From contig JASLQF010000037.1 in assembly GCA_030744625.1 (NCBI GenBank), forward strand, positions 1 to 64,000: 64,000 nucleotides of DNA, given 5' to 3'. Numbering within the stretch: position 1 is the stretch's first letter; the number at the start of each line of letters is the position of its first letter. This stretch comes from Rhodospirillales bacterium (GTDB lineage Bacteria > Pseudomonadota > Alphaproteobacteria > Rhodospirillales > JASLQF01). Shown here one piece after another: positions 47,136 through 49,384 of the stretch. Position numbers and translations under genes: made by a program. The notes under the pieces were generated by a model, which was given only the letters and a program-made list of their open reading frames with translations, searched no databases and was not told the origin of the DNA.

Positions 47136-48113
47136 TCATGCCGCCCGCCGCCGCGCGGCGGGGCCCGGCGGGGCGGGCCACGGTGGCGCGGCGGTGCGTT
47201 CGGCGGTTCGCAAACGCGCCGAGCGGGCGCGCGGATTGGCGGCGACTTCCCGCGCCGTCGGTTTGGCGACGCGCCGCTTGACAAGCCGGAAAGAAGGGGT
47301 CGAGGCGGCTTCCCCGCTGAAAGGCTGGTGACGCGACGGCCGGGGTCCCGCGCCGCCGCGCTCGCGCAGGAAATCCTTGACCATGCGGTCCTCCAGGGAA
47401 TGGAAGGACACGACGACGAGCTTGCCGCCGGGCCGCAGCAGGACCTCGGCGGCGCTGAGGCCGCGCTGAAGCTCGCCCAGTTCGTCGTTAACGTAAATGC
47501 GCAGTGCCTGGAAGGTGCGGGTAGCGGGATCGAGACCGTCCCGGGAGCGCGGCACGACGCGGCGTAACAGATCGGCCAGTTGGGCGGTGCGGGTCATGGG
47601 TGCCCGCGAGCGAGCGTCGACGATGGCCCGCGCGATGCGGCGCGCCACCCGCTCCTCGCCATACCTGTATATGATGTCGGCCAGTTCCTTCTCGTCGAGG
47701 CCGTTGACCACGTCGGCGGCGGTCATGCCGTCTTTGCTCATGCGCATATCAAGCGGCCCATCGGCGCGGAAGGAGAAGCCGCGGGCGGGATCGTCGAGTT
47801 GCATCGAAGAGACGCCGAGATCGAGGGCCACGCCATCGACCCGATCGACGTCGACGTCGCCGAGCAGGCGGACCATGTCGCCGTAGCACCCGCAAAGGAC
47901 GGCCAGACGCCCCTCGTAGCGGCGCCCCAGATCGGCGCTCCTGGCCGCGGCGGGGTCGCGATCGATCCCCCACACCGTGCACGAGGCGGCTTCCAGCAAA
48001 CCCTTGGAGTACCCGCCGGCGCCGAAGGTGCCGTCCACATAGACACCACCGTCGCGGGGCGCCAGGATATCCAGGACCTCGCGGAGCATTACCGGTGCGT
48101 GGACGTCGGCCAT
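47136..48113 (-). CDS. rsmH: 16S rRNA m4C1402 methyltransferase RsmH (MraW)
   Basis: A 325-residue SAM-dependent methyltransferase acting on 16S rRNA C1402. N-terminal [16 protein letters not shown] loop [36 protein letters not shown] and the late [15 protein letters not shown] are all intact. ATG at 48113 begins two bases after the mraZ stop. The C-terminus is basic and arginine/alanine-rich. Confidence 0.97.
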
Positions 48114-48115
48114 GA

Positions 48116-48589
48116 TCAGCTTCCCTCGTCTCGTGGCTTGGCGGACCTGAGACGCAAGGTGGCGCCGCGGGCGCGGGCGCGCTCGAGCGCCTTGACGCTG
48201 TTCGCCTCGTAGGCCTTGGGGTCCCAGATCTGCATGCGCGCCCCACGACCGACGAATATCACCTCCCCGGCGATGCCGCCGTGGGCGAGCAATTCGCCGG
48301 GCAGGACGATGCGCCCCTCCGTGTCGAAGGCAAGGGCGTGGGCGCGTTCGAGAATGGCGGCGGCGAGATCGTCCTGCTCGTCGGAGAAGACGTCGAGGTC
48401 GTCGAGGCTCTCGCCGAGGCGCATCATGAACTCCTCGCCGCACGCCTCGATCGCCGGATACTTGAACAGCGGGTAGGCGTAGATGCCCTTGAAGGCTTGT
48501 CCCTTGAAGGAACCGCGGAAGGGCTTGGGTACGGACACCCGCCCTTTCTTGTCGATCTTGTTGACGTACCTGCCGACCAATAACGGCAT
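48116..48589 (-). CDS. mraZ: transcriptional regulator MraZ
   Basis: A 157-residue protein with two SpoVT/AbrB-like halves ([15 protein letters not shown] at the N-terminus, [17 protein letters not shown] in the second), the MraZ pattern. It forms ring-shaped oligomers and in E. coli represses its own dcw promoter by binding TGGGN repeats. ATG at 48589 gives the normal [11 protein letters not shown] start. A matching ten-base-period repeat array lies about 100-150 bases upstream. First gene of the dcw cluster. Confidence 0.96.
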
Positions 48590-48684
48590 TTCGGCCCCCA
48601 CAAACCGGCGTTTCCTGCTACGGGCATCGCCTGGAATCCCTCCGGTGGCGACGATCTTCCCCACGAAAGCATGACGGTCTTTGT

Positions 48685-48739
48685 TGGGATATCATGGGCT
48701 TTCATGGGCGTCAATGGGACCATCTGGCATTACTTGGGT
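48685..48739 (+). promoter_or_regulatory. MraZ-box array: six TGGGN-type repeats with 10-base period
   Basis: Six five-base units start exactly ten bases apart at 48685, 48695, 48705, 48715, 48725 and 48735: TGGGA, TGGGC, TGGGC, TGGGA, TGGCA (degenerate), TGGGT. The period of five plus five bases equals the known MraZ site, for which three or four repeats are typical. The motif reads on the plus strand, that is, against the direction of mraZ transcription. It lies 96-150 bases before the mraZ ATG, where the dcw promoter should be. Confidence 0.85.
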
Positions 48740-48854
48740 TAACAAAGTCTTTCCAAAACGTAAATTTTCACTGACTTGGCGACGCGCAGGTAAAACCGCG
48801 GTTCCCTAAAAACCGCCGATTTGAATAAAGAGAATAAGAATGGGGCAGAATTAT

Positions 48855-48869: not shown

Positions 48870-48983
48870 TTTTCACGTTTATTTCTTGACGCCGCGACCG
48901 CAAGGCGCCACCACCGGCTCGTCGCAGGACGTGGCGGAGCCCCACCTGGGCGCTCGCCGGCAACCGGGAATTCATACGAAGAA

Positions 48984-49384
<401 letters not shown>

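Follow-up and report, generated by a model that had tools for sequence, protein, structure and literature searches.

Upstream of mraZ in the 64,000-nucleotide stretch of Rhodospirillales DNA analysed here (the window) lies an array of six TGGG-like repeats that reads against the gene. MraZ is a ring-shaped, widely conserved bacterial regulator of the operon that serves cell division and wall synthesis; to our knowledge, few lineages have had their MraZ operator studied. The locus raises the question of whether the array is an MraZ operator, and whether its orientation and number of units are peculiar to this DNA.

The TGGG array and the mraZ locus

The array, a putative MraZ operator conserved in the order and class, occupies positions 48685..48738 of the plus strand. 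Exact TGGG units are found at 48685-48688, 48695-48698, 48705-48708, 48715-48718, and 48735-48738, and a TGGC unit at 48725-48728. The initial annotation had described six units in perfect ten-base register, antisense to mraZ, and both observations hold: the period is exactly 10, and mraZ lies on the minus strand. The period-10 chain score is 10.5 on the array strand and 3.0 on the opposite strand. A pattern search elsewhere in the 3.2-Mb genome gave one isolated three-unit match, as did a reversed control pattern, and there is therefore no sign of a wider regulon.

The mraZ gene (48116..48589, minus strand) encodes a protein of 157 amino acids and is followed by rsmH (47136..48113, minus strand; TIGR00006, 5.4e-86), which comes next in the dcw operon. 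The RNase P RNA gene rnpB (48983-49382, RF00010) lies on this strand too, upstream of mraZ, with a terminator-like hairpin after it at 48816-48798, between rnpB and mraZ. The window protein has the marks of the MraZ family, namely two AbrB-like halves, D-x-x-x-R-type motifs (residues D13-K15-G16-R17 and D89-G92-R93), and family-model matches. It scores above the cut-off for Pfam MraZ and matches NCBIfam NF001477 at 1e-42, yet falls under the curated cut-off of that model. Its closest named relatives are from Rhodospirillales MAGs, at approximately 70% identity, in keeping with the placement in the initial annotation. Both within and outside the Alphaproteobacteria there is almost no variation in the D-x-K-G-R and D-x-x-G-R motifs, which suggests that the DNA-reading core of alphaproteobacterial MraZ is probably retained.

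Comparison with known MraZ sites

The array has the features by which MraZ boxes are recognized: direct repeats with a TGG(G) core at a 10-bp period, and a position at the promoter of mraZ and the dcw operon. It departs from the coding-strand placement that is usual for MraZ units, though not definitional, in being antisense. The nearest described counterparts include the boxes of the E. coli mraZ1p promoter, which are bound by MraZ (Eraso et al. 2014, as cited in PMC7761207). Inspection of the E. coli K-12 sequence places the repeats, AGTGGGAAATTGTGGGGCAAAGTGGGAATA, on the coding strand, directly downstream of the -10 element. As in the window, these are TGGG direct repeats with a 10-bp period at the mraZ promoter. 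E. coli has three exact units and one degenerate unit, whereas the window has six units on the opposite strand that enclose the -35 and -10 elements. The MraZ protein of Burkholderia cenocepacia binds a four-repeat region in EMSA (PMC7761207). Those repeats also have a 10-bp period and lie upstream of mraZ, but they are four in number and located downstream of the -10 box, over the start site (PMC7761207); for the window array, MraZ would be the presumptive ligand. A related Burkholderia (L159) has a sense array. In mollicutes the MraZ site is given as AAAGTG[T/G] direct repeats (Fisunov 2016, as summarized in PMC8475190). From that summary, the mollicute site resembles the window array in that direct repeats, built on a GTG core, occur at the mraZ promoter, and differs in that the core here is ATGGG and the array of a mycoplasma (L157) is in the sense orientation.

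Orientation of the array across bacteria

We took mraZ upstream regions from the window's order (30), the rest of the class (82), a third alphaproteobacterial set (25, close or named species, some of them perhaps genomes repeated from the other sets), and from outside the class (41: Gammaproteobacteria, Betaproteobacteria, Bacillota, Actinomycetota, and Mycoplasmatota). At a loose threshold of 4, 131 of 137 alphaproteobacterial regions have an antisense array, one a sense array, and five no clear array, counts that come from related sequences and are not independent events. Raising the threshold to 6 leaves 115 antisense arrays and no sense array, with 22 regions below threshold. Outside the class the picture is reversed, with 36 of 41 regions sense, one antisense, and four without an array at threshold 4, and 28 sense and none antisense at threshold 6. 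Antisense arrays occur in S. meliloti, R. leguminosarum, Shinella, Pelagibacteraceae, Sneathiella, and Rhodospirillales MAGs; sense arrays occur in Bacillus velezensis, Paenibacillus, Subdoligranulum, Nonomuraea, Tsukamurella, Legionella, Burkholderia, and Mesomycoplasma hyorhinis. The base before TGG also shows a modest shift, being mostly A in the Alphaproteobacteria and G outside.

The antisense orientation is the rule across the Alphaproteobacteria and is not special to the window locus. The initial annotation had proposed looking for the repeat in orthologous Rhodospirillales promoters, and there it is strongly conserved, with an antisense array at 29 of 30 same-order loci. Searches of open-access papers found neither published alphaproteobacterial MraZ sites nor a description of an inverted MraZ operator in the class.

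The array encloses the predicted mraZ promoter

A feature that the initial annotation did not remark on is that the array encloses a candidate core promoter for mraZ, TTGACG-17-TATCCC on the minus strand. The -35-like TTGACG (48709..48714) sits between two TGGG units and belongs to a conserved TTGAnn. The -10-like TATCCC (48686..48691) has a TG two bases upstream and overlaps the unit at 48685, as part of an ATGnTATCCCA sequence conserved class-wide. The spacer is 17 bases in 31 of 35 loci of the order, and 17 or 18 in 75 of 92 other loci of the class. The predicted transcription start in the window lies at about 48677-48680.

Published leader lengths are consistent with this placement. In S. 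meliloti, the start predicted from the TTGAC-17/18-TATCCC pair falls at -169 to -172 relative to the annotated mraZ start, in agreement with a published leader of 170 nt (PMC5089854). The R. sphaeroides leader is 268 nt (PMC5089854), and at one locus, from a family that may be Rhodobacteraceae, the predicted start is at -263, a match that is suggestive only. TATCCC is a poor match to a sigma-70 -10 element, and this counts against an operator that lies on the promoter. A sigma-70 scan of the minus strand called no promoter because TATCCC fails the rule of the scan; the pair was recognized through its conservation. We also considered TTTGTTAACC as the mraZ -10 region. It was rejected, having no conserved -35 element upstream in the aligned order, and the S. 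meliloti start fits the TTGAC-N-TATCCC pair within the array instead.

A comparable arrangement is visible in Nonomuraea (L152), where TTGACG directly precedes sense GTGG units and TATGGT follows about 16 nt further on. Going by this locus, overlap between MraZ array and promoter may extend to the Actinomycetota, with the orientation reversed.

Co-occurrence of the array with mraZ

We searched 30 genomes of the class that lack a Pfam MraZ match for rsmH. Seven have a divergent mraZ adjoining rsmH after all, and 23 are without mraZ. The array is absent at 22 of these 23 rsmH loci, so that it both occurs and disappears with mraZ, as is expected of an MraZ box. The exception is a reduced genome of 0.8 Mb (L196), in which CCCATTGACGCCCAGCTATTCCCATGTTAT upstream of rsmH is a three-unit remnant that still contains the promoter-like pair.

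Number of units and alternative readings of the array

To count units we aligned the loci on the TATCCCA unit of the coding strand, taken as position 0. CCA occupancy at positions -50, -40, -30, -20, -10, 0, and +10 is 0.03, 0.09, 0.46, 0.89, 0.96, 0.95, and 0.66 in the rest of the class, and 0.66, 0.60, 0.86, 0.97, 1.00, 0.91, and 0.66 in the window's order, where off-register occupancy is 0.009 against 0.6-1.0 in register. These profiles point to a class-wide core of four to five units, to which the window's order has added two upstream units. The window array fills positions -50 to 0, without +10, and its two promoter-distal units (TGGC and TGGG, 48725..48738, plus strand) are the order-specific addition. 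When units in an unbroken row are counted, each with three or more matches out of four, 13 of 35 loci of the order have seven and 7 of 35 have six. The earlier statement that described boxes have three or four units holds for E. coli and B. cenocepacia. In the Alphaproteobacteria, however, five units are common, as are six or seven in this Rhodospirillales-like order.

The outermost unit overlaps a further conserved element, CTTTGTTAACC (48736..48749, minus strand). This order consensus adjoins the array on its upstream side in most loci of the order and is close to a CtrA half-site and to S. meliloti Motif 2, TTTGTTAACCAT, which is not assigned to a regulator (PMC3616915). Since the outermost unit overlaps conserved CTTTGTTAACCC, the extension may in part belong to another regulator, and this unit could belong to the TTTGTTAACC element. 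On such a reading only the four core units would be the MraZ operator, and the two distal units would form the site of another regulator (TTTGTTAACC, for example a CtrA half-site). The listing of S. meliloti mraZ among genes with CtrA motifs (PMC3616915) is in keeping with this, as is a locus (L013) whose distal unit reads TTTGTTAACCAT, the S. meliloti motif itself, and the -40 unit is seldom an exact CCCA (0.09). Against it, the -40 unit keeps an in-register CCA in 0.60 of loci compared with 0.009 off register, and at one locus (L028) six consecutive units are exact, those at -40 and -50 among them. We consider an effectively four-unit operator less likely than not.

We weighed two further readings of the array. 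The G-runs might form a template-strand G-quadruplex with a regulatory role at the dcw promoter. This has been proposed for S. aureus mraZ, where a G-quadruplex has been reported in a G-rich repeat at the promoter (PMC11796246). The window does fit the formal G3-N7-G3-N7-G3-N7-G3 pattern, with its G-rich strand as the template. Conservation, however, tracks TGG in helical phase rather than the G-runs: within the unit, conservation is lowest at the final G of the run, the T, which is no part of the run, hardly varies, and the units hold their exact 10-bp phase. Moreover, the strict pattern is present in only 43 of 91 class loci outside the order, and beyond the class the unit core is GTGG or GTGT, often without G-runs. 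We regard a G-quadruplex as highly improbable. A chance or neutral tandem repeat has nothing in its favour beyond the repetitive look of the sequence, and we assign it a negligible probability. The highest chain score in 100 order-2 Markov simulations of 64-kb windows was 6.5, against 10.5 for the real array; the units are conserved across some 30 families of the order, whereas the bases of the spacers vary; and the array is lost together with mraZ. Conservation refutes this possibility.

A model for MraZ repression of the dcw operon

We conclude that the array is very probably an operator for repression by MraZ of its own dcw operon, inverted class-wide and placed over the core promoter. MraZ binding, repression, and the engagement of one subunit per unit are inferred from sequence comparison. 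Neighbouring MraZ subunits would line up along the same face of the helix, each in contact with a single TGGG unit. As the units enclose the -35 (TTGACG) and -10 (TATCCC) elements, bound MraZ would keep RNA polymerase off the mraZ promoter. In the Alphaproteobacteria the whole array is inverted relative to the gene, compared with the other groups examined, and the window's order has added two upstream units. Steric occlusion is indifferent to orientation, and the inversion can thus be neutral for repression.

The initial annotation had viewed the array as an antisense MraZ box with extra units, which might let the MraZ ring wrap more DNA and strengthen or grade autorepression. The identification itself is borne out by sequence, conservation, and co-loss with mraZ, but the orientation proves not to be locus-specific. 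Because the array encloses the core promoter, repression by occlusion is explainable without extra DNA wrapping. Stronger or graded repression with more units is possible, though hypothetical. More tentatively, and with rather less than an even chance of being right, operator polarity may have been inverted once near the base of the Alphaproteobacteria, onto the core promoter. In the window's order the operator would then have grown to six or seven units, and a MraZ assembly that is opened or enlarged, or a pair of rings, might take part in repression there and give a graded or cooperative dcw switch.

The class-wide inversion, with its 10-bp register intact, makes it possible to test cleanly whether operator polarity matters to MraZ action. 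The six or seven units in the window's order exceed the four described for B. cenocepacia, and the added units provide a natural series (approximately 3 to 7) for how a ring-shaped MraZ counts boxes. The array is also a ready motif for dcw promoter annotation throughout the Alphaproteobacteria.

Exceptions to the class-wide arrangement

Three exceptions weigh against the operator reading, namely the remnant at L196 described above and the arrays at L072 and L205. In one genome of the class (L072/L212, G280:C116), a GTGG array in the sense orientation accompanies a divergent MraZ at a contig end. Antisense arrays are present in two further genomes from its family, and contamination or transfer is therefore the likely source of the sense array. 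In family f41, which has a very divergent MraZ, the period-10 arrays are mostly CCCC or CCCG, as at L202, L206, and L210, where they are still antisense, and co-drift of the MraZ protein and its operator is possible judging from these sequences. Another f41 member with a very divergent MraZ (L205) has three sense GTGG units upstream of mraZ and is a possible exception to the antisense rule of the class.
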